NCBI GenBank assembly: GCA_903854535.1
Contig: CAINWR010000068.1
Location: forward strand, 1 to 33,718
Reading direction: 5' to 3'
Length of the DNA stretch: 33,718 bases
DNA from: Candidatus Staskawiczbacteria bacterium
GTDB lineage: Bacteria > Patescibacteriota > Minisyncoccia > Minisyncoccales > Staskawiczbacteraceae
Below the pieces are notes generated by a model, which was not told the origin of the DNA, ran no database searches, and saw only the letters and a program-made list of their open reading frames with translations. The position numbers and the translations under genes were made by a program. Below are positions 1,592 through 18,101 of this stretch, piece by piece; within the stretch, counting starts at the first letter, position 1; every line of letters begins with the position of its first letter.

Positions 1592-4500
1592 ATGAAAAAA
1601 ATATATTTAATAATGGCATTGTCTTTAGTATTATTTCTTGGGGCAGATAAAATATTATCTGCAACAACTAATTGTGTAGATTCTGATGGTGGTAAAATTT
1701 TTAATATAAAAGGTACGGTAACATATTTATATAATGGATTAAGTAGATCAGCTACTGATTATTGTTTTAGCGATACATCTTTAGTTGAAAGATATTGCGC
1801 TCAAGGTAGTGCTTTTAATATGACGCAAGTTTGTGAATATGGGTGTGATGTAGCTAATAGCGTGTGTAAAGCATCTCCAGCTGTTGATAACCAGGAAAAT
1901 CCTGGCACAACCACAGGTGGTGACACAACCACTGGCACAGGGACCACTGGAACTCAAGTTAAATGTTCAGAAACAGATAGTGGTAATAACATATGGAAAT
2001 ATGGAATTTTAAATGATCCAAAAGGTGGCCAGAAGTTTGATTATTGTGTTGGTTCTGGGCCAGGAAGCTCTGTGGGTGAATATTATTGTACTGGAGATTA
2101 TGCTTATACTTTTGCATATTTTAGATGTGATTATGGTTGCGAATCTGGTGCTTGTAAAACAAGAATTAATTTTACTTCACCTTTATCTGCTTCAAGCGCT
2201 AATACAAAATTAAATTTTGGGAGTAAGTATGATATTGTATGGCAAGGCCAAGGCTCAATAGGAAAAAATATATCCTTAGATATTTATAAAATGCAATTTA
2301 GACCAGAAGGAAATTTTTGGACAACTTGGACAAAAGTAAAGACCTTAAAATTAATAAATATTTCTGATACGCTGTTTTCTGGATCTTTAAATGGCTGGAC
2401 AAATGATTTGGCTGTAAATGATGATTCACATGGTTATGCATTTGTTATGAATGACTTGGCACTAGTTTCTGGAGAAACATCAATTGTTGGTTACCAATTT
2501 TTTCAAGTGGTGAGTTCGGGTGGTGTTGAAGGGGTTGGTGGTGGTTTAAATGGTTTCGAATGCACTGACTCTGATGGAGGTGTTAAAGCTTTTACAAAAG
2601 GAACTGTTAGCACAACTGCAGGACAATCTTATGTAGATGTATGTAATGTAAATTATGTTAAAGAATATTTTTGTGATGGTGCAAATATAAGATCAAATGA
2701 TGTTTATTGTTCTGCTGGGTGTAGTAATGGATCTTGCAATATAGATTGTACAGATTCAGACAATGGTAAAGACATTTTCACTAAAGGATTTTTATCAAGA
2801 AAAAGTACCAGTGTTCAAAATTATGATAGTTGTACAAGTTCTAACACAAAAGTTATAGAAAATTTTTGTAATGCAGAAACTGGTTTAATTGATAGTGAAA
2901 TTATTGATTGTAAAAATGGCTGTATAGATGGAGCTTGTAAACTAGATTGTAATCCAGATTGGCAGGCAAGAGAATGGTCTTCTTGTTCTTCGGCTACTTT
3001 GACGCAAACAAGAGAATACTATGATAAAAATAATTGTAATATAACAAAAGATAAGCCAGCAACTGAAACTAGGAATTGTTCTATAATTGATGTAAATAAT
3101 ACTGGAGATAATACTAATAATCTTACTTGCACTGATACAGATAATGGTAGAAATTATTTTACAAGAGGTATTACTTATTTATCTGATGTACTTGTTAATA
3201 GGCCTACAGATGTATGTTCTGCTGATAGAAAGAGTCTTACAGAATATTATTGTGAAGAAGGGGTTGTTAAAAGTGAAATAGTGCCATGTCAGAACGGTTG
3301 CTTGAATGGTGTTTGTAATTCATCTTGCACAGATTCAGATAATGGTAAAGTTTATAATATAAAAGGAACTACAGTCTATGGATCTTCTACTGTTGTTGAT
3401 AAATGTTATGATAAAAATCCAAAATGGCTTCAAGAATATTATTGTGATGTTGATGGAGTGAGAAAATATGAATGGAAGTTTTGTTCTTTGGGTTGTGATA
3501 CAGAAAAAGCAATTTGTAGGCAAGCAGAAAATACTTGCGAGCCAAACTGGAATTGTACAGCTTGGAGTACTTGCTCAAACTCAAGTCAAGTGCGAACTTG
3601 CACAGATAGCAATAACTGTGGAGTAACAACTAACAAACCAGCAGAAACTCAGTCTTGTGGAACATCAGGATCTTGCAGTGATTCTGATACGGGAAAGGAT
3701 TACTTTACCAAAGGTTTTACAATAAATGCTTTTAATCAGAGGTCAGATGATAGTTGTTCTGGTAATGATTTGACCGAATATTATTGTAAAAATGATGGTA
3801 GTGGTGCCTCTATGTTTGAAATTAAAAAATGTGATTATGGTATTGGTGCTTACAAATGTGAAAATGGTGCTTGTGTAGCTACAACTTGCACTCCAAACTG
3901 GACTTGTACAGCTTGGAGTACTTGCTCAAACTCAAGTCAAGTGCGAACTTGCACAGATAGCAATAACTGTGGAGTAACAACTAACAAACCAGCAGAAACT
4001 CAGTCTTGCTCTGTTTCTCAAACTTGTACTGACCCAGATGGAAAAGATTATTTTAGAAAAGAAACATTAGTTTATAGAGGTACGTCATATGCAGATCGTT
4101 GTGACTCAAGATATCCAAACCACGTATTAGAATATTATTGTGATAGCACAGGAACAGGTAAGGCTGAATGGGGTTCATGTCCAAATGGATGTGATGGTGA
4201 TGGCGCTTGCAGGCCTGTAGATACCTGTACTCCAACTTGGATGTGTGGTCCTTGGGGTGCTTGTTCAAATTCGAGCCAATCAAGAACTTGTGTTCAAGGA
4301 AATTGTGTTAATCAAGTTGGGACAAAAACAGAAAATCGAAGTTGCAACGTAACAGGGGCCTGTACTGATTCAGATGACGGAAAAAATTATTATAAAGAAG
4401 GAATAGTAACCGAAGCTAGTGGTAATACTTATGATGATATTTGTACTGGCAACAGACTTTTAGAATATTATTGTGATGGGAATAGTGTTGGAGTTGAAGA

Positions 4501-6010
4501 AAAACTTTGTATATGTAAAAATAATAAGGCATGTAACCAAGCAGTTTTATGTGAGGATTCTGATGGAAAAAATTACTTTACTGATGGATTTGTTTTATAT
4601 TCAGGCAATTTAGTTCACGATTATTGTTCGGGTGATTTATTGCAAGAAAGATACTGTACTACTGCTGGGACACAAGCTAGTGAGACAATAAGATGTCAAT
4701 ATGGTTGTAATAATAGTAATAAGGCTTGTAATGTTTCATCAACTTGCTCTCCAAATTGGACTTGTGGAGCTTTTGGAGTTTGTAGGAATGGAACATGGGA
4801 AAGAACATGCACTCAAACTAATTGTCCATATTTAGAGAAAACAAAAACAGAAACTCAATCGTGCGCAACTTGTAATGAATCTGATGGTGGAGAAGTATAT
4901 TCTATTAAGGGGGTTTTAAATTATATAGATATAGCTGGTAAAACAGAAACAAAAGAAGATGTTTGTATTGATAGTTCTAATTATGGTAAGGATAAATTAC
5001 TTAAAGAATATTATTGTCAAACTGTAGGTGGTTATACACATTGGACTTCGAAAGAAAAGTTATGCGAAAATGGTTGCATTAATGGATCTTGTAATACTCA
5101 TACAGAATGTCAAAATCAGAAATGTGTTTCGGTGAGTGGCACTGGATCAAATAGTTGTACTTTTGGTAATGATTCAACTTGTAGCGGAGGTAATGGGACT
5201 TGTACAGATACTGATGGCGGAAAAGATTACTTTGTCCGAGGAGAAGTAAATGCTTTTAGCGCTACTGGCAATAGGAAGGTTTCTGATTCTTGTTCAGGAA
5301 ATTATCTTACAGAAGAATATTGCGAAGGAGGTATTGCTAAAACTGAAGCTAATCATTGGTGCGCCGATGGATGCTCTAATGGTGCTTGTATAGCACCAGT
5401 TTGTAGTGAAACAGATTCAGGGAGAGACTATTTTAATCCAGGAGTAACAACTGGTTCTAATGGAGAAAGACATTATGATGTTTGTGCAAATGGTATTCTT
5501 GGAGAATTTTATTGTGGTAGTGATAATAGAACAGCATTTTATGAGTCAGTAACTTGTGGAGAAGGATGTGATAGTAGTAATAAAGCATGTAAACAGACAG
5601 TACCAACTTGTACAGAATCTGATAATGGAAAGGATTACCTTGTAAAAGGAACTACAAGCATCTTAACCGGCAGCTCTTTAATGGATCAATGTCTTGATGC
5701 CTATCAACTTCAAGAATATTATTGTGCGTCACCTGCTGCTACTGCTATTTCAACTGAATTTAAAAATTGTGAAAATGGATGTGCAAATGGATTTTGTAAG
5801 CCAGGCGTATCTCAATCCTGTGTTGATCCAGATGGTAAAAATTATAATAGAAAAGAAACAATGGCCTATTTAGGACTAACATATACAGATTATTGTGACT
5901 CTAGGTTTCCTGGATATGTAGTGGAGTATTATTGTAATGATGAAGGGGTTGGTAAGGCGCAATATGGATCTTGTGGTAATAGTACTTGTTTCTCGGGAGC
6001 TTGTAAATAA
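1592..6010 (+). CDS. Giant secreted Cys-rich modular protein (about 15 six-Cys modules, five TSP1-like inserts, one Ig/KRE9-like domain)
   Basis: N-terminal signal peptide MKKIYLIMALSLVLFLGADKILSA; recurring C.DSD.GK.Y..KG.......D.C.....L.EYYC......C..GC..G.C and C.PNW.C..W..CSNSSQ.RTC.....TETQSC. Confidence 0.85.
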   Translation: MKKIYLIMALSLVLFLGADKILSATTNCVDSDGGKIFNIKGTVTYLYNGLSRSATDYCFSDTSLVERYCAQGSAFNMTQVCEYGCDVANSVCKASPAVDNQENPGTTTGGDTTTGTGTTGTQVKCSETDSGNNIWKYGILNDPKGGQKFDYCVGSGPGSSVGEYYCTGDYAYTFAYFRCDYGCESGACKTRINFTSPLSASSANTKLNFGSKYDIVWQGQGSIGKNISLDIYKMQFRPEGNFWTTWTKVKTLKLINISDTLFSGSLNGWTNDLAVNDDSHGYAFVMNDLALVSGETSIVGYQFFQVVSSGGVEGVGGGLNGFECTDSDGGVKAFTKGTVSTTAGQSYVDVCNVNYVKEYFCDGANIRSNDVYCSAGCSNGSCNIDCTDSDNGKDIFTKGFLSRKSTSVQNYDSCTSSNTKVIENFCNAETGLIDSEIIDCKNGCIDGACKLDCNPDWQAREWSSCSSATLTQTREYYDKNNCNITKDKPATETRNCSIIDVNNTGDNTNNLTCTDTDNGRNYFTRGITYLSDVLVNRPTDVCSADRKSLTEYYCEEGVVKSEIVPCQNGCLNGVCNSSCTDSDNGKVYNIKGTTVYGSSTVVDKCYDKNPKWLQEYYCDVDGVRKYEWKFCSLGCDTEKAICRQAENTCEPNWNCTAWSTCSNSSQVRTCTDSNNCGVTTNKPAETQSCGTSGSCSDSDTGKDYFTKGFTINAFNQRSDDSCSGNDLTEYYCKNDGSGASMFEIKKCDYGIGAYKCENGACVATTCTPNWTCTAWSTCSNSSQVRTCTDSNNCGVTTNKPAETQSCSVSQTCTDPDGKDYFRKETLVYRGTSYADRCDSRYPNHVLEYYCDSTGTGKAEWGSCPNGCDGDGACRPVDTCTPTWMCGPWGACSNSSQSRTCVQGNCVNQVGTKTENRSCNVTGACTDSDDGKNYYKEGIVTEASGNTYDDICTGNRLLEYYCDGNSVGVEEKLCICKNNKACNQAVLCEDSDGKNYFTDGFVLYSGNLVHDYCSGDLLQERYCTTAGTQASETIRCQYGCNNSNKACNVSSTCSPNWTCGAFGVCRNGTWERTCTQTNCPYLEKTKTETQSCATCNESDGGEVYSIKGVLNYIDIAGKTETKEDVCIDSSNYGKDKLLKEYYCQTVGGYTHWTSKEKLCENGCINGSCNTHTECQNQKCVSVSGTGSNSCTFGNDSTCSGGNGTCTDTDGGKDYFVRGEVNAFSATGNRKVSDSCSGNYLTEEYCEGGIAKTEANHWCADGCSNGACIAPVCSETDSGRDYFNPGVTTGSNGERHYDVCANGILGEFYCGSDNRTAFYESVTCGEGCDSSNKACKQTVPTCTESDNGKDYLVKGTTSILTGSSLMDQCLDAYQLQEYYCASPAATAISTEFKNCENGCANGFCKPGVSQSCVDPDGKNYNRKETMAYLGLTYTDYCDSRFPGYVVEYYCNDEGVGKAQYGSCGNSTCFSGACK
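2160..2520 (+). other. Cys-free beta-sandwich domain (possibly KRE9-like/Ig-like) inserted after Cys module 2
   Basis: INFTSPLSASSANTKLNFGSKYDIVWQGQGSIGKNISLDIYK resembles the 'I.V.SP..G..W..G....I.W' pattern; no Cys across about 120 aa. Confidence 0.45.
3542..3657 (+). repeat. Copy 1 of a 116-bp near-perfect intragenic direct repeat (TSP1-like module)
   Basis: Matches 3893-4008 at a fixed 351-bp offset; 105 bp (3553-3657 vs 3904-4008) read as identical, one mismatch in the remaining 11 bp. Confidence 0.9.
3893..4008 (+). repeat. Copy 2 of the 116-bp near-perfect intragenic direct repeat
   Basis: See copy 1 at 3542-3657. Confidence 0.9.
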
Positions 6011-7118: not shown

Positions 7119-9656
7119 ATGATAAAAGAAAAAGAGGAGGACAAGCAAATAAATAATATAGGTAGTGTAAAGCAAAGAGAGATGGTAGAAGAGCTCAAAG
7201 AATCATATATTGATTATGCGATGTCTGTTATAGTAGCTCGTGCTTTACCAGATGTAAGAGATGGTTTTAAGCCTGTGCATAGGAAGATTTTGTTTGCAAT
7301 GAATGAATTGGGGCTTGGATCATCTGCAAAATTTAGAAAATCAGCTGCAGTTACAGGAGATGTTTTAGCTAAATATCACCCACATGGAGATGTGGCTGTA
7401 TATGAATCTATGGTAAGAATGGCTCAAGATTTCAATATGAGATACCCATTAATTAATGGGCAAGGTAACTGGGGATCAATAGATGGTGATGGAGCTGCTG
7501 CTATGAGGTACACAGAATGTAAATTAACTAAAATTGGGGATTTGATGCTTCAAGATATTGAGAAAAATACAGTTAATTTTATTGATAACTATGATGGCAC
7601 TCGTCAAGAACCTGTTGTTTTGCCAAGTCCTGTACCACAACTTTTATTAAATGGTAGTTTGGGAATTGCAGTTGGAATGGCTACTAATATTCCGCCTCAT
7701 AATTTAACAGAAGTTTTAGATGCTACAATTCATTTATTAGATCACCCTAAAGCAGAAACTTCAGATTTATTCGAATTTGTTCAAGGGCCTGATTTTCCAA
7801 CAGGCGGAATAATTTATGATAGAAAGGAAATTATTTCAGCTTATTCTCAGGGAAAAGGAGCTATTATAATGCAAGGCAAGGCTGAGATTGTAGAAAGCAA
7901 ATCAGGAGTAGACCAAATAGTAATTACAGAAATACCCTATCAAGTTTTAAAATCTACATTAGTTGAGCAAATGGCAGATTTAGTTTCTGAAAAGAAAGTT
8001 GAAGGCATAAAAGATATTAAAGATTTATCAGATAGAGAAGGAATGAGGATTATTATTGATGTAAAAAAGGGATTTGAACCTCAAAGAATTTTAAACAAGC
8101 TTTATAAATTTACTAATTTACAAAAAACTTTTCACTTGAATTTATTAGCTTTAGTAGATGGCATACAGCCAGAGATCTTATCTTTGGTAGATGTTTTGAA
8201 ATATTTTATTGATCACAGAAAGCAAGTAACTACTCGTAGGGTGCAATATGATTTAGATAAAGCCAAAGAAAGAGCGCATATTTTAGAAGGCTTAATGATT
8301 GCTTTAAAAAATATTGATGCTGTTATTCAAACAATCAAGAAATCAAAAGATAAAGAAGAAGCTAAAGAAAATTTAATTAAAAAGTTCAAGCTTACAGAAA
8401 GACAAGCAGTGGCAATTTTGGAAATGAAATTGCAAACTTTAGCTGGTCTTGAAAGATTAAAAATAGAAGAAGAATTAGAGAATTTAATGAAGCTTATCAA
8501 GGAATTGACTGCTATTTTAAAAAGTCCTGAGAAGCTAAAAGATATAATTAAAAAAGAATTTCAGGAATTAAAAGAAAAATTTGGGGATAAAAGAAGGACA
8601 AAAGTTGTAAAAGGTAAATTAGGTGAGATCTCAGAAATTGATTTAATTCCACTTGAAGAAACTATAGTTACTCTTACAACTGGTGGTTATATAAAAAGAA
8701 TTAATCCAGATACATATAAAGCTCAGCATAGAGGTGGCAAAGGTCTTGTAGGAATGAAGACAATGCAAGATGATATTGTAGAACATTTTCTTACAGCTTC
8801 TACTCATGACAACTTAATGTTTTTTACAGATTCTGGTAAAGTTTTTCAAACACAAGTTTATGAAATACCAGAAGGCAATAGAGTAGCTCGTGGCAGAGGA
8901 TTGATGAATTTTTTGGAAATATCAACAAATGAAAAAGTTCTTTCTATGGTCCCTACCACAGGAGCTCCGCAAGGAAAGCCTACAGAGAAACAGGGCCAGC
9001 TTTTAGAAAATACTGATAAATTTTTAGTAATGATTACCAAAGATGGCACTATTAAGAAAACAGCTCTTGAAGAATTTGGTAATGTGAGAAAGTCAGGAAT
9101 TATTGCTATTAAATTAGATAAAGGAGATTTGTTGAGAAAAGTAGTTAAAACAACAGGGAACGATGATTTAATTATTGTAACCAAAAAAGGAATTGCTATT
9201 AGATTTAAAGAAAAAGATGTAAGACCAATGGGCCGTTCAGCCTCTGGAGTAAGAGCTATCAAGCTTAAATCAGGAGATGAGATTGTGGGAATGGATGTAA
9301 TTTCCCCCTCCGCTAAAGCTTCGGGGGACAAGCCTGCTGAAAAACAATATTTATTAGTTGTTATGGAAAACGGATATGGTAAAAGAACAGAAGTATCTCA
9401 ATATAAAACTCAAAGCAGAGGAGGCTCTGGTATTATTACAGCTAAAATAACCTCTAAAACAGGGCCAGCAGTATTATCTTCTATATTAAGAGGTAGTATT
9501 GAACAAGAAGATTTAATTGTTATCTCGCAAAAAGGGCAAGTTATTAGAACAGGTGTTACTTCAGTTTCTTTGCTTGGAAGAGCTACTCAGGGTGTAAGAA
9601 TTATGCGCTTAGATGATGGGGATAAAGTAGCTTCAGGTGCCTGTGTAAAAGAATAG
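7119..9656 (+). CDS. gyrA: DNA gyrase subunit A
   Basis: [33 protein letters not shown]..., AAMRYTE, and a C-terminal beta-propeller with the GyrA-box-like QHRGGKG. Confidence 0.95.
9302..9349 (+). repeat. Small palindrome-like insertion inside gyrA, translated as [15 protein letters not shown]
   Basis: CCCCCTCCGCTAAAGCTTCGGGGG (outer CCCCC/GGGGG, inner GCT/AGC) in an otherwise AT-rich coding region, at an inter-strand loop of the CTD. Confidence 0.55.
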
Positions 9657-9686
9657 TTGACTTACTCTAATAAAAATTTGTATAAT
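9657..9686 (+). promoter_or_regulatory. Sigma70-like promoter for the pilin array, overlapping the gyrA stop
   Basis: TTGACT (9657-9662), 18-bp spacer, TATAAT (9681-9686); ATG at 9693 lies 6 nt after the -10. Confidence 0.6.
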
Positions 9687-9692
9687 AATACT

Positions 9693-10043
9693 ATGAAGAG
9701 AATATTTATTAGTTATTTAGTTTTATTTGTCATATTATTTGCTTTTAGTTATACATCTGTTAATGCTGTTGGTATAATTAATCCTTTGGGAGCAAATAAT
9801 TTCTGCGAATTATTAACAGGTTTATCTAGTAAGATTGCTGGACTAGTTGCAACTTTATCTGGTATAATGATTATAATAGCAGGTATGATGTATTTAACTT
9901 CTGCAGGAGATCAGCAAAAAATGACTACAGCTAAAACAGCTTTAAAATATGCTATCATGGGTATTATTATAGCATTATTAGCTATTCCAATAGTTGAAAT
10001 AATTAAAGAAGTTCTTAATGTAAGTGTGCCAGGTGGTTGTTAA
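9693..10043 (+). CDS. VirB2/TrbC-like small two-TM pilin-family protein (paralog 1)
   Basis: MKRIFISYLVLFVILFAFSYTSVNA signal peptide, two TM segments separated by TSAGDQQKMTTAKTALKYAIMG. ATG at 9693 preferred over the track's 9657. Confidence 0.75.
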   Translation: MKRIFISYLVLFVILFAFSYTSVNAVGIINPLGANNFCELLTGLSSKIAGLVATLSGIMIIIAGMMYLTSAGDQQKMTTAKTALKYAIMGIIIALLAIPIVEIIKEVLNVSVPGGC

Positions 10044-10080
10044 TTAAAAAAAGACAAATATTAAAAGGTCGAATTAATTA

Positions 10081-10193
10081 AACAGATTACACAGATTAAT
10101 TACGGATTTACACAAATCACAGATTGTCGCAGGCTTTGCAGATATTTATCTGTGACCTGTGAAAATCTGTTTATAATTTTGTGAAAATCTGTT
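10081..10193. repeat. Intergenic imperfect palindrome rich in ACAGATT/AATCTGT motifs
   Basis: Outer AACAGATT (10081-10088)/AATCTGTT (10186-10193); inner TCACAGAT (10117-10124)/ATCTGTGA (10148-10155). Confidence 0.6.
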
Positions 10194-10204
10194 GTTTCAA
10201 AAAT

Positions 10205-10519
10205 ATGAAAACATCAAAAATAATAGTTAGTTTATTACTTTTATCAGTAGCTCTTTTGCCAGTAGTTGCATCAGCTCAGCCAGCTACAACAGGCCTTGAT
10301 TTTACAACATTAACAGGAACAGTAGGGACTCTTTTGTGGCAAATAGTTGGAATCGTGGCTTTGGTAATGTTTGTTATTGCAGGTTTGCAATTTATGTTCG
10401 CTCAAGGTGATCCAGGAAAAGTTGCTACAGCAAGGCAGTTTGTATTGTGGGGAGTAGTTGGAATTGTAGTAGCTATATTAGCTTACTCAATAGTTGGAAT
10501 AGTTGAAAGTATTATTTAA
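10205..10519 (+). CDS. VirB2/TrbC-like two-TM pilin-family protein (paralog 2)
   Basis: MKTSKIIVSLLLLSVALLPVVASAQ signal peptide; two TMs around FAQGDPGKVATARQFVLWGVVG. Confidence 0.75.
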   Translation: MKTSKIIVSLLLLSVALLPVVASAQPATTGLDFTTLTGTVGTLLWQIVGIVALVMFVIAGLQFMFAQGDPGKVATARQFVLWGVVGIVVAILAYSIVGIVESII

Positions 10520-10529
10520 TATATAAATA

Positions 10530-10572
10530 TTTCGTAAGTCCGGTCCCGCTTTGGCGGGACCGGCTAGCGAAA
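10530..10572. repeat. GC-rich perfect hairpin between pilin genes 2 and 3
   Basis: CCGGTCCCGC-tttg-GCGGGACCGG (10540-10563), flanked by TTTCG (10530-10534) and CGAAA (10568-10572); no U-tract. Confidence 0.8.
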
Positions 10573-10666
10573 ATTATTAAGTAAAATTTGGTATAAGAAT
10601 TATTTTAAAGATTAATTATTAAGATTTTTAAAATAGCTCTTATTTCAAATTTAATTGCAAATCAAA

Positions 10667-10984
10667 ATGTCTATTAAATCAAAATTCTTATTAACTTTAC
10701 TTGCTTGCTTGTTTTTACCGCTAATGGTTTCTGCTCAATTTACTCAGCCAATAATGGGAATTAGTTTAACTAGTCTTATAAATAGCATTTTAAATATATT
10801 TTGGGTATTAGCTACTATATTTGCTGTTGTGTGCTTTGTAATATCTGGTATTATGTTTATGACAGCAATGGGAGATGCGAATAAGGTGAAAATAGCTAGG
10901 AATTCTGTAATATTTGGAGCTATTGGGATTGCAGTAGCTATTTTAGCTTTTTCTGTTGTTAATATTATTGATAGTGTCTTATAA
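10667..10984 (+). CDS. VirB2/TrbC-like two-TM pilin-family protein (paralog 3)
   Basis: MSIKSKFLLTLLACLFLPLMVSAQ; two TMs around TAMGDANKVKIARNSVIFGAIG. Confidence 0.75.
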   Translation: MSIKSKFLLTLLACLFLPLMVSAQFTQPIMGISLTSLINSILNIFWVLATIFAVVCFVISGIMFMTAMGDANKVKIARNSVIFGAIGIAVAILAFSVVNIIDSVL

Positions 10985-11004
10985 AATTATTTAATTTAAT
11001 ATTT

Positions 11005-11322
11005 ATGCAAAAAAAATTATATTTTTCAGTACTAATATTTATTTTAGGGGTTTTAATTGTGCCGCAATTTGCTTTAGCACAACCAACTACTATTACTCAA
11101 ATAGTTACAAATTTATCTTCTTTAATAACTGGAATTGCAATTTTTGTGGTCGTTATATCTTGGATTCTTACGGGGCTTATATTTTTAACAGCTCAAGGAG
11201 ATCCAAGTAAAATTACAAAAGGTAGAACAGCTTTAATTTGGGCAGTAGTTGGTACGGCTGTAGCGTTTTTAGCGGGAACTGCAAGAATAATTATTGGCAA
11301 TGCTCTATCAACAGGATTTTAA
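11005..11322 (+). CDS. VirB2/TrbC-like two-TM pilin-family protein (paralog 4)
   Basis: MQKKLYFSVLIFILGVLIVPQFALAQ; two TMs around TAQGDPSKITKGRTALIWAVVG. Confidence 0.75.
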   Translation: MQKKLYFSVLIFILGVLIVPQFALAQPTTITQIVTNLSSLITGIAIFVVVISWILTGLIFLTAQGDPSKITKGRTALIWAVVGTAVAFLAGTARIIIGNALSTGF

Positions 11323-11340
11323 TTAAATAAATTATTTATA

Positions 11341-11652
11341 ATGCAAGACAAAAAAATATTATTTTTATCATTATTAGCAATTGTTCTAAATTTTCCGTTA
11401 TTTGTTTCTGCACAAGTAACTGCTGTAGGTATTGTAACAAACATAGCCACAGTTCTTAACAATATTATTTTGGTATTTATTATAATAGCTTGGTTGATTA
11501 CTGGACTTTTGTTTTTGATGGCAACAGGAAATCCAAATCTTGTTGGGCTGGGTAAAAAAGCAGCTTTTGCTTCAATAATCGGAACGGTAATTTATGTATT
11601 ATCGGGCGTAGCTTTGGGTATCATTAGTAGTGCAATTTTGCAAGGTCAATAA
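11341..11652 (+). CDS. VirB2/TrbC-like two-TM pilin-family protein (paralog 5)
   Basis: MQDKKILFLSLLAIVLNFPLFVSAQ; two TMs around MATGNPNLVGLGKKAAFASIIG. Confidence 0.72.
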   Translation: MQDKKILFLSLLAIVLNFPLFVSAQVTAVGIVTNIATVLNNIILVFIIIAWLITGLLFLMATGNPNLVGLGKKAAFASIIGTVIYVLSGVALGIISSAILQGQ

Positions 11653-11697
11653 AATCATTTTTGCAATTGAATTTATTAAAATTAAAATTTAAAACTT

Positions 11698-12027
11698 ATG
11701 AATAAAAAAATATTTTTATGTTTGTTTTTAGCGATTCTGATTCTACCATCATTGGTAATGGCTCAAAGTCCTGGTGGTATTGCTTGTACACATGTTAAAA
11801 ATTTTATGACTGCAATTTATACTATTGCTGTGACTTTAGTAGTTGTAGGTTGGGTTATAGCAGGTATATTATGGCTGACTTCTATGGGTAGTACAGAAAG
11901 AACTGGAACGGCAAAAAAAGCCACTACCGCTGCAATTATTGGGACGACGGTAGTTCTAGTTTCTGGGATTGCTGCCCCTGTAATTGCAAGTCTATTAAGT
12001 ATCCAAGGAGGATTATTAGGTTGTTAG
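11698..12027 (+). CDS. VirB2/TrbC-like two-TM pilin-family protein (paralog 6)
   Basis: MNKKIFLCLFLAILILPSLVMAQ; two TMs around TSMGSTERTGTAKKATTAAIIG; Cys after the signal peptide and at the C-terminus. Confidence 0.72.
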   Translation: MNKKIFLCLFLAILILPSLVMAQSPGGIACTHVKNFMTAIYTIAVTLVVVGWVIAGILWLTSMGSTERTGTAKKATTAAIIGTTVVLVSGIAAPVIASLLSIQGGLLGC

Positions 12028-12055: not shown

Positions 12056-12088
12056 AAAACAATTCTGTTAAGAGCAGGGTTGTTTTTT
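12056..12088 (+). terminator. Intrinsic terminator after the pilin array
   Basis: AAAACAATTCTG-ttaagag-CAGGGTTGTTTTTTT, 12-bp stem with two G-U pairs, then a T run. Confidence 0.7.
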
Positions 12089-12145
12089 TGTTTACTCTTT
12101 TTTTTTTATTTAATTTTTATAATGATTATGTTTTGTAAATATTTC

Positions 12146-12173
12146 TTGACGTAGATTTTGAACAAAGTATAAT
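12146..12173 (+). promoter_or_regulatory. Sigma70-like promoter of the PaaX/Cas2-like gene
   Basis: TTGACG (12146-12151), 16-bp spacer, TATAAT (12168-12173). Confidence 0.7.
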
Positions 12174-12184
12174 AAATTAACACC

Positions 12185-12222
12185 TATCGCACAAATACGA
12201 CGATCGCTACTTTTATGCGATA
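12185..12222. repeat. 38-bp imperfect palindrome, upstream copy (operator-like position)
   Basis: TATCGCACAAATACGACGATCGCTACTTTTATGCGATA; arms TATCGCA/TGCGATA with CGATCG at the centre; 34/38 identical to 12790-12827. Confidence 0.85.
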
Positions 12223-12228
12223 AGATGT

Positions 12229-12789
12229 ATGATTAAAAATATGAAAATACATAAAAAGAAAACTAGTAAAGAAATTTTGTCAGAAAGAATTTTTAAATTT
12301 ATAATTGATAAATCAAAAGAAGCATTAGAAGGAGGTTTAGAGTTAATAATCAACCCTTCTGGCATGCAATTTAGCAACAGAAATATCGCTTCTTTTTTTC
12401 GTCAAAAAGAATATTTTAAAAGAAGCCCATACTTTGGACAAGTTAAAGGTGGTTATCAGCTTACAGGAAAGGGTAGAATTAAAGTAATAAAAAGTATTTT
12501 AATGGAAAAATTAAATAAAGAAGCAAAATGGAATGGTTTTTGGTGGGCAGTTGTATTTGATATCCCTGAGAAGAGAAGAAATATAAGAGAATTATTAAGA
12601 CGTGAATTAAAAATGATGCATTTTGTGGAGATTCAGAAAAGTATTTGGATAACGCCTTACAACATAGAAAAAGAGTTATTTATATTACTTAAATTATGGA
12701 CAAAAGATTTTACTGGGAATATAAAGGTTTTGAAAATAGAAAAAATATTAGATGACAAAGAACTTAAAGAGTATTTCGAAATAAAATAG
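12229..12789 (+). CDS. PaaX-like transcriptional regulator with Cas2-like ferredoxin-fold domain (stand-alone Cas2-like family)
   Basis: N-terminal wHTH-like part (GGYQLTGKGRIKVIKSI), then KWNGFWWAVVFDIPEKRRNIRELLRRELKMMHFVEIQKSIWITPYNIEKEL, a Cas2/PaaX-middle-domain pattern. Start could also be the ATG at 12241. Confidence 0.7.
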   Translation: MIKNMKIHKKKTSKEILSERIFKFIIDKSKEALEGGLELIINPSGMQFSNRNIASFFRQKEYFKRSPYFGQVKGGYQLTGKGRIKVIKSILMEKLNKEAKWNGFWWAVVFDIPEKRRNIRELLRRELKMMHFVEIQKSIWITPYNIEKELFILLKLWTKDFTGNIKVLKIEKILDDKELKEYFEIK

Positions 12790-12827
12790 TCTCGCACAAA
12801 TACAACGATCGTTGCTTTTATGCGATA
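12790..12827. repeat. 38-bp palindrome, downstream copy, starting on the base after the stop codon
   Basis: TCTCGCACAAATACAACGATCGTTGCTTTTATGCGATA; contains the perfect 12-bp palindrome CAACGATCGTTG; direct-repeat partner of 12185-12222. Confidence 0.85.
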
Positions 12828-12928
12828 GTAATGTAAATCTATTTTATGGATTTTTATTATTGGGTTGTTTTTTTGTGATTTTTAAGATAGAATTAAAAGC
12901 AATTAAGCAATATATTTATTTGTTTAAT

Positions 12929-13087: not shown

Positions 13088-13120
13088 CTACAAACTACTA
13101 GCTACAACCTACAAGCTAAG
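13088..13120. repeat. 33-bp dispersed repeat, copy A (intergenic, adjacent to hsp20 stop)
   Basis: CTACAAACTACTAGCTACAACCTACAAGCTAAG is the reverse complement of 17328-17360 (inside tsaD) with one mismatch. Confidence 0.85.
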
Positions 13121-13121
13121 T

Positions 13122-13547
13122 TTATGCTTCTTTGATTCCCACCTTGCCTTTATTAATATTGTTATCTATTTTAGGAAATTTTATTGTGAGAACTCCTTTA
13201 TCCATCTCAGCTTGAGCATCTTGAGAATTTATATTTTCTGGTAAAATTATTTTTTTGGAAAATGGTCCCCAATAACATTCTTGATATAAGTATTTATTAT
13301 CTTTTGAGCTGTGGGGATTTTTCCTTTCTCCTTTAATTATCATCATATCTTTTTCTATGGATATATCCACATCACTTATAGCAACGCCTGCTATTGCAGA
13401 AGAAATAACAAATTCAGCTTGAGTTTCAAATACATCTACTACAAGCTCCCCTTCTTTAGAGAATATATTTTTTTTTGTTGTATTTGATGTGTCTGAGTTT
13501 TTTTCAAGATCTGTATTGATGGCAGAATCTGATTTTATTTTTTTCAT
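13122..13547 (-). CDS. Hsp20/alpha-crystallin family small heat shock protein
   Basis: GELVVDVFETQAEFVISSAIAGVAISDVDISIEKDMMIIKGERK...YQECYWGPFSKKIILPENI...DKGVLTIKFPK. Confidence 0.9.
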   Translation of the reverse strand: MKKIKSDSAINTDLEKNSDTSNTTKKNIFSKEGELVVDVFETQAEFVISSAIAGVAISDVDISIEKDMMIIKGERKNPHSSKDNKYLYQECYWGPFSKKIILPENINSQDAQAEMDKGVLTIKFPKIDNNINKGKVGIKEA

Positions 13548-16889: not shown

Positions 16890-18101
16890 TTATTCGCCGA
16901 TTCTCAAGTTGGAGTCGGCTTTTAAATTTTCCCAATTGGTCGGGGTCGGACCCCGATTATTTTTTATGTTAAAATAGCCGGCGATGGCGATCATGAGTCC
17001 GTTGTCGGTGCTTAAATTGGCTGGCGGATAGATGATTTGAATTTTGTATTCTGAAGCCAGAACGCTGAATTGTTTTTTTAATTCTTGATTGGCAGAAACT
17101 CCTCCGCCCAAGATAATTGATTTGGCGCCAAAATCTTTTACTGCTTTGAAAGTTTTTTTCAAAAGTACATCTATTATAGCTTGCTGGATTTCAGCTGACA
17201 TCGCAGAAATATAATCTTTATTTTTTTGAATTTTTTTTGGTTGTTTTATGTGTGAATAAAGCACTGCAGTTTTTAGACCAGAAAAACTCATATCATAATC
17301 TTTGGTATTTAGCATTGGGCGAGGAAGCTTAGCTTGTAGGTTGTAGCTGGTAGTTTGTAGGGCGAGTTTTGAGATTATGGGTCCTCCTGGATAGCTAAGC
17401 CCTAAAATTTTAGCTGATTTATCAAAACATTCACCAGCAGCATCATCTCTAGTTTCACCCAAGATTTTATATTTACCCACATCTTCAACCAAAATAATCT
17501 GCGTATGTCCACCCGATACGACTAGGGCAATAGCCGGAAATTCGGTTTTTAAAATTTGATCATTGGGATTTGATTGAAAATTGAAAATTGAAAATTGAAA
17601 ATTCGAGACTAGTATATGTCCTTCTATATGATTTACCGGAATTATGGGAATATCCCAAAAATACGACAAGGCTCTGGCAAAATTTACTCCTACCCACAAG
17701 CAGGGCTCAAGCCCAGGCCCATTAGTAACTGCAATATAATCTATATCTGGTTTTGAATATTTTTTTAAAAATGGAATTAATTTTTTTGCTAGTTCAGGCT
17801 CGCGCTCAAGGATAATTTTTAATTGAGAAATTTTATCATTGGAAAATTTATTGGAAATTGGAAATTGAGAATTGAAAATTCTAAGTATTTCTGCTTTTCT
17901 TAGTGCTTGAATAAATGTTGGAACTAGATTCTTCTGGTGTTCGCGTTTTGCCATCATAGGAAAAACACCACCATATTTTTTATGAACTTTTATTTGGGAA
18001 GCAACTTCATTTGCTAAAACCAAAAAAGCGTCATTATTTTTGACTTCCAAAATAGCTATTCCTGTATCATCGCAAGATGTTTCTATGCCAAGTATTTTCA
18101 T
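16890..18101 (-). CDS. tsaD: tRNA N6-adenosine threonylcarbamoyltransferase TsaD
   Basis: MKILGIETSCDDTGIAIL, HEKKYGGVFP-like segment, TNGPGLEPCLWVGVNFA, PVNHIEGH, LVVSGGHTQI, GEARDDAAGE-like GETRDDAAGECFDKSAKILGLSYPGG, GGGVSANQELK. Confidence 0.95.
   Translation of the reverse strand: MKILGIETSCDDTGIAILEVKNNDAFLVLANEVASQIKVHKKYGGVFPMMAKREHQKNLVPTFIQALRKAEILRIFNSQFPISNKFSNDKISQLKIILEREPELAKKLIPFLKKYSKPDIDYIAVTNGPGLEPCLWVGVNFARALSYFWDIPIIPVNHIEGHILVSNFQFSIFNFQSNPNDQILKTEFPAIALVVSGGHTQIILVEDVGKYKILGETRDDAAGECFDKSAKILGLSYPGGPIISKLALQTTSYNLQAKLPRPMLNTKDYDMSFSGLKTAVLYSHIKQPKKIQKNKDYISAMSAEIQQAIIDVLLKKTFKAVKDFGAKSIILGGGVSANQELKKQFSVLASEYKIQIIYPPANLSTDNGLMIAIAGYFNIKNNRGPTPTNWENLKADSNLRIGE
17328..17360. 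repeat. 33-bp dispersed repeat, copy B (within tsaD coding sequence)
   Basis: CTTAGCTTGTAGGTTGTAGCTGGTAGTTTGTAG; translated in tsaD as part of LALQTTSYNLQAKL. Confidence 0.85.
17574..17601. repeat. Heptanucleotide tandem repeat inside tsaD (TTGAAAA x4)
   Basis: Four exact TTGAAAA units; on the minus strand the region encodes NFQFSIFNFQ. Confidence 0.9.
17851..17880. repeat. Second degenerate heptanucleotide repeat inside tsaD
   Basis: TTGGAAA TTGGAAA TTGAGAA TTGAAAA TT; encodes IFNSQFPISN on the minus strand. Confidence 0.85.

Follow-up and report, generated by a model that had tools for sequence, protein, structure and literature searches.

A single-gene cassette between paired 36-bp palindromes encodes a winged-helix, Cas2-fold protein and is probably mobile in Patescibacteria

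Organization of the locus

The window, that is, the whole 33,718-nt stretch of DNA analysed here, is one contig of an 844-kb CPR (Patescibacteria) genome. As listed in Table 1, it carries two 38-bp palindromes which, by inspection of the sequence and by pattern search, are identical at 34 of 38 positions, lie in the same orientation and are both centred on CGATCG. Only one gene is located between them, and the cassette as a whole measures about 640 bp. This layout agrees with that described in the sequence-only reading: the downstream copy begins on the first base after the TAG stop codon, and the upstream copy follows a TATAAT box by 11 nt, where about 12 nt had been claimed. The TATAAT belongs to a promoter-like pair situated just 5′ of the left palindrome. 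For this locus, the Rfam search at the curated threshold gave tRNA as the sole match, and PADLOC returned weak Cas2 matches and nothing more. The claim that neither cas1 nor an array is nearby also held, with no regular array among the window repeats and no Cas1 in the genome.

Several other features of the window were recorded. Five or six small two-helix membrane protein genes with a TrbC/pilin-like look stand in tandem at 9657–12027, 5′ of tRNA-Leu; the order of these genes, tRNA-Leu, hsp20, a PrsW-like protease gene and valS is conserved in relatives. The gene at 1592–6010 encodes a 1472-aa protein with many cysteine-rich modules (C-x-[DE]-SD-x-G-K...) and includes two 125-nt stretches that are 97% identical. 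Two 36-nt inverted copies of CTACAAACTACTAGCTACAACCTACAAGCTAAG (13088–13123 and 17325–17360, 94% complementary) represent a dispersed intergenic repeat with no relation to the palindromes.

Table 1. Coordinates of the cassette and its surroundings in the window
Feature	Position	Strand	Basis
15-bp direct repeat GGGTTGTTTTTTTGT, left copy	12077–12091	+	Comparison with G002; tentative
Promoter-like TTGACG (12146–12151), 16 nt, TATAAT (12168–12173)	12146–12173	+	Consensus match only
Upstream (left) palindrome TATCGCACAAATACGACGATCGCTACTTTTATGCGATA	12185–12222	+	Sequence, pattern search
Left 36-bp unit, centre between 12203 and 12204	12186–12221	+	214 aligned palindromes
Gene for winged-helix + Cas2-fold protein, 186 aa	12229–12789	+	ORF, Pfam, structure model
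Winged-helix DNA-binding region, about aa 50–98	12376–12522	+	AlphaFold2 (H50-58, H60-65, E69-72, E75-78, H80-98)
Cas2-like ferredoxin-fold domain, about aa 101–170	12529–12738	+	PaaX_M/Cas2 Pfam, AlphaFold2, Foldseek
Asp111 codon	12559–12561	+	Invariant in 83-sequence alignment; aligns with Cas2 strand-1 motif Asp
Downstream (right) palindrome TCTCGCACAAATACAACGATCGTTGCTTTTATGCGATA, directly 3′ of stop	12790–12827	+	Sequence, pattern search
Right 36-bp unit	12791–12826	+	214 aligned palindromes
15-bp direct repeat GGGTTGTTTTTTTGT, right copy	12862–12876	+	Comparison with G002; tentative

The encoded protein combines a winged helix with a Cas2 fold

Searches against Pfam matched the window protein to PaaX_M (PF20803, E=2.6e-17) and, below that profile's cut-off, to Cas2 (PF09827, E=0.0018). 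All 12 diverse family members tested likewise matched PaaX_M, and none of them matched the N-terminal or C-terminal PaaX domains or the Y1 (HUH) transposase domain (PF01797). The score against the PaaX equivalog TIGR02277 was 19.5 bits vs. a cut-off of 264.55. An AlphaFold2 model built from 83 relatives (mean pLDDT 83.9) shows a winged helix joined to a ferredoxin fold. The winged-helix region gave weak wHTH matches in the PDB, and Foldseek with the model retrieved Cas2 structures at probability 1.00 (E 0.004–0.01), with E. coli PaaX lower down, and showed similarity to the Cas2/VapD fold. The earlier description of the protein as a wHTH joined to a Cas2 fold, of the PaaX family, was thus borne out. 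In the alignment of 83 sequences only G82, F110, D111, R120 and S138 are invariant. No known transposase motif was found among these residues: none is a His or Tyr and, with D111 as the sole invariant acidic residue, there is no DDE catalytic triad.

The palindrome pair is a recurrent property of the family

The window genome encodes five family members, each lying between a palindrome pair that differs from those of the others; the other four pairs have the arms ATTACTA..., CAACTACC..., CTTGTGACTACGATCGTAG... and ACGACAATA...GCGGTCGC.... Relatives were detected in 34 of 58 near genomes and in 90 of 287 genomes drawn across the CPR phylum, with up to 11 per genome (the database-named genomes are MAGs). 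Their spread is patchy, and G003, a genome of the same genus that is 99% complete, has no member even by profile search. No relative was found in IMG/VR or in phage and plasmid collections, so the gene does not belong to the phages or plasmids represented in those sets. Several members in G007, G013, G015, G018 and G020 contain an internal stop codon, i.e., they are decaying copies.

To count as a pair under our strict test, the upstream and downstream sequences had to align with a score of at least 36 and both copies had to be palindromic. On 80 named CPR contigs the test was passed by 56 of 84 relatives vs. 5 of 746 other ORFs, the latter five being low-complexity or tandem repeats, and the window pair is therefore not a product of chance. 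Matched pairs were present in 58/78 loci of a second set overlapping the first, and in 16/28 loci sampled phylum-wide vs. 0/22 controls. Five of these 28 loci repeat loci of the earlier sets, as judged by sequence; the three sets overlap and their counts are not fully independent. About eight of the 28, or about a quarter of the distant members, have no pair at all, so that, with the family defined at its broadest, the pair is typical and not universal.

Palindrome anatomy and co-evolution with the protein

When 214 palindromes were aligned on their symmetry axis, pairing extended to ±18 nt and then ended, which defines a 36-bp unit. Base complementarity was 0.80–0.99 at ±1–4, 0.67–0.72 at ±5–8 and 0.79–0.90 at ±9–18, and about 0.35 beyond; the unit thus has a CNNNNG core, an outer arm on each side and, between core and arms, a spacer with less strict pairing. 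C(-3) and G(+3) are each kept in about 92% of the palindromes, the commonest cores being CGATCG, CGGCCG, CGGTCG, CTATCG and CTATAG.

Within an element, the left and right copies match at 29.6 of 36 positions on average. Between elements the value is 25.4/36 where the proteins share at least 70% identity, and about 14–15 where they are distant. Core classes are distributed in line with the protein tree, with 33 changes vs. 46.4±1.8 (minimum 41) after shuffling. These values indicate that the two palindromes of a pair evolve in concert, faster than the protein, and stay matched to it. As to relative orientation, among 89 elements the direct alignment was better in 40, the inverted one in 19, and both were equal in 30. 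At one locus (L164), two extra solo copies of an element's palindrome lie 130 nt apart near that element (8595–8628 and 8726–8757), possibly the start of a local array.

Shared ends and gene-less sites

Comparison of two species revealed a cassette (L006 in G000, L141 in G002) that is 85% identical over 714 nt; the homology is bounded by the outer palindrome edges and the flanks are unrelated. The genomic surroundings of family members are diverse, as 312 neighbour ORFs fell into 264 clusters. The commonest neighbour, rnhB, occurred at 5 of 80 loci. The counterpart of the window locus, with the order pilin-like gene, tRNA-Leu, hsp20, protease, valS, has no cassette gene in G002, G003, G004, G005, G006, G008 and G017; in part, these gene-less sites could be losses.

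No target duplication next to the palindromes rose above chance in 86 elements. In the window, GGGTTGTTTTTTTGT occurs twice, and it is found once at the gene-less site of the sister species G002. This single case lies farther out than the palindrome edges; it may reflect either a deletion in G002 or a target duplication made when a larger unit was inserted.

Gene-less palindromes occur in frame within conserved genes

Elsewhere in the genome, on a different contig, a third copy of the window palindrome, with two mismatches, interrupts tsaE in frame (SHKSSDRHIYAI). In G002 the palindrome lies in frame inside rnhB (SHKSSDRHICAI), together with one intergenic copy. Overall, in-frame solo palindromes were found in rnhB, tsaE, mnmA, pth, rlmN and uvrC, host genes whose names we assigned by reading the translations. 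Solo copies are few: in the sampled stretches of 23 genomes, to which all solo counts refer, we found 21 places. For 14 of the 21, the best match was an element of the same genome, vs. 10% expected, and for most of the others it was one from within the genus or family. The sequence-only reading had held that copies at unrelated loci lacking the gene would speak against its proposals; such copies do exist, e.g., in tsaE and rnhB, and turned out to be evidence for mobility.

Palindrome-bearing loops of TsaE and RnhB are longer than those without a palindrome (p=0.0015 and 0.0011, respectively), and the difference disappears once 12 residues are subtracted (p=0.5 and 0.32). As the loop lengths are then normal, the net insertion is 36 bp, i.e., 12 codons.

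We also considered a functional link to rnhB, which is both a neighbour at some loci and, in its loop, a frequent insertion site. This link was rejected, since palindromes in rnhB are present irrespective of whether the genome has elements, and the neighbours vary in side and orientation; rnhB is read as a tolerant site. For tsaE, the association between palindrome and element presence reached p=0.06 only. A second family of coding repeats uses the same tolerant sites: a longer in-frame repeat, RGGLQTDEAIQSEGA...SPFGLARND, is located in the rnhB loop of G002 (L070), with a similar match in the tsaE loop (G002:C27:6750-7175) and 13 candidate places in that genome.

Proposed mechanism and alternative explanations

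The proposal that the window holds a mobile cassette bounded by its own repeats, one of several put forward in the sequence-only reading, is strongly supported by the pair statistics, the shared ends, the gene-less sites, the solo copies and the 12-codon test. We consider it probable that the cassette belongs to a family of small CPR/Patescibacteria mobile elements whose protein recognizes the palindromes and represses the promoter of its own gene, and is probably responsible for movement as well. The layout is that of a 36-bp palindrome, a single gene and the same palindrome in the same orientation. Judging from its fold, the protein would bind the two-fold symmetric palindrome as a dimer. 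The upstream copy would be the site at which it shuts off its own promoter, and the protein would act as, or direct, the enzyme that moves both the cassette and the bare palindrome, in a manner similar to that proposed for RAYT transposases and REPs.

Autoregulation, also suggested earlier, is supported at the sequence level as a plausible second role of the upstream palindrome. Among promoter-like pairs, a -10 box lies 25–34 nt past the centre of the upstream palindrome in 22 of 107 cases vs. 4 for downstream copies, a spacing at which the right arm of the palindrome would overlap the -35 box. Regulation leaves the gene-less in-frame copies unexplained. The same difficulty weakens the wider view that the gene encodes an ordinary chromosomal PaaX-like repressor with operators before and after it, acting by DNA looping or by shutting off itself and the next gene, with nothing mobile involved. 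That view would account for the wHTH and PaaX_M domains, for two-fold symmetric palindromes that often overlap a promoter, for core classes that track the protein tree, and for one subfamily in which the downstream copy precedes rnhB. We nevertheless regard it as quite improbable, because gene-less palindromes sit in frame in tsaE, rnhB, mnmA, pth and others, homology stops at the outer palindrome edges, no target neighbour is conserved, and small genomes contain 5–12 divergent members each.

An RNA device, with hairpins at both ends of the mRNA bound or cut by the Cas2-like part (an RNase or VapD-like toxin) in a self-regulating toxin or processing system, appears very improbable. The Cas2/VapD fold similarity and the position of the copies, one at the 5′ end and one at the 3′ end of the presumed transcript, are what it would lead one to expect. 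Yet G.U-tolerant mismatches on the coding strand (G.T vs. A.C) showed no strand bias beyond background, so the hairpin suggestion of the sequence-only reading found no support. In many members, moreover, the promoter lies 3′ of the upstream palindrome, which would leave that copy untranscribed, and the 12-codon insertions in housekeeping genes are not predicted by such a device. It is likewise unlikely, to our mind, that the palindromes owe their mobility to an unrelated enzyme acting in trans (a Y1/RAYT transposase, Cas1 or the repair machinery), with the Cas2-like gene carried along as a passenger that encodes a repressor or regulator. The protein has no catalytic triad, and Y1 transposases are encoded in 22 of 34 related genomes, including that of the window, both of which would suit an enzyme acting in trans. 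Against it stand G014 (nine members plus solos), G013 and G041, genomes with three to nine members of which none has a Y1 transposase, and the finding of Cas1 in only 2 of the 34 genomes; it is absent from the other 32, the window genome included. Furthermore, each palindrome goes with one particular protein, and no second gene is present in the cassette. Because most of these genomes lack Cas1 and some element-rich ones lack Y1 transposases, neither is needed in general, and this leaves the Cas2-fold protein as the leading candidate enzyme, for which we infer a catalytic role.

On the reading of a self-mobilizing cassette, we further suggest, tentatively and with somewhat less than even confidence, that the wHTH-Cas2 protein could be a new type of transposase or recombinase. 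It would cut and join at palindromes without Cas1 and would be the source of the 12-codon in-frame insertions by which loops of essential CPR proteins are extended.

Comparison with known systems and implications

In RAYT systems, the transposase is of the HUH/Y1 type and lies between inverted REPs that carry a GT(A/G)G head and usually occur in very many copies (PMC2817692). The cassettes described here resemble them in the placement of a small gene between two palindromic repeats of one family, in element-specific palindromes that co-evolve with the protein, in dispersed gene-less palindromes and in several paralogues per genome. Unlike RAYTs, they encode an unrelated wHTH and Cas2-fold protein without PF01797; the window pair is direct, as is the better alignment in most elements with a preferred orientation, whereas REPs of RAYTs are inverted; no head was seen, and the few solo copies often lie in coding sequence. 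Rickettsia palindromic elements (RPE), of about 150 bp, are in-frame insertions in conserved protein-coding genes and occur in reduced genomes (reviewed in PMC10969869). They share with our palindromes the in-frame position in conserved genes, but the insertions here are 36 bp long, and for them there is a known cognate gene with the same palindrome on either side. The cassette is therefore similar to both systems in the way it works and is a member of neither.

The protein follows PaaX regulators (PF20803/TIGR02277) in having a wHTH ahead of a Cas2-like PaaX_M domain and is likely a DNA-binding repressor, but it differs from them in the missing terminal PaaX domains, the TIGR02277 score far below cut-off, the absence of phenylacetate genes and the mobile, multi-copy context. 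It shares the ferredoxin-like fold and the strand-1 Asp with Cas2 of CRISPR systems, casposons and VapD. In contrast to CRISPR Cas2, it has an additional N-terminal wHTH, in a genome without Cas1 and at a locus without an array; in contrast to casposons, there is a single-gene cassette and no Cas1-type integrase. Classical DDE insertion sequences differ by their DDE triad, their terminal inverted repeats and the short target-site duplications that accompany these. The literature on Cas2/PaaX, palindromes, CPR, RPE and RAYT, preprints being outside the search, yielded no account of such a system, and the cassette is apparently a mobile DNA element of an undescribed kind.

If this interpretation is true, there would be a Cas2-fold protein that serves DNA mobility with neither CRISPR nor Cas1, a finding relevant to the origin of the pairing between Cas2 and an integrase. 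There would also be a concrete source of in-frame palindromic insertions; for those of Rickettsia, where they come from is still an open question. Many CPR genes now annotated as PaaX or as stand-alone Cas2 would have to be renamed, and about a third of the sampled CPR genomes, in a group for which few mobile elements have been described, would carry a mobile-element family of their own.
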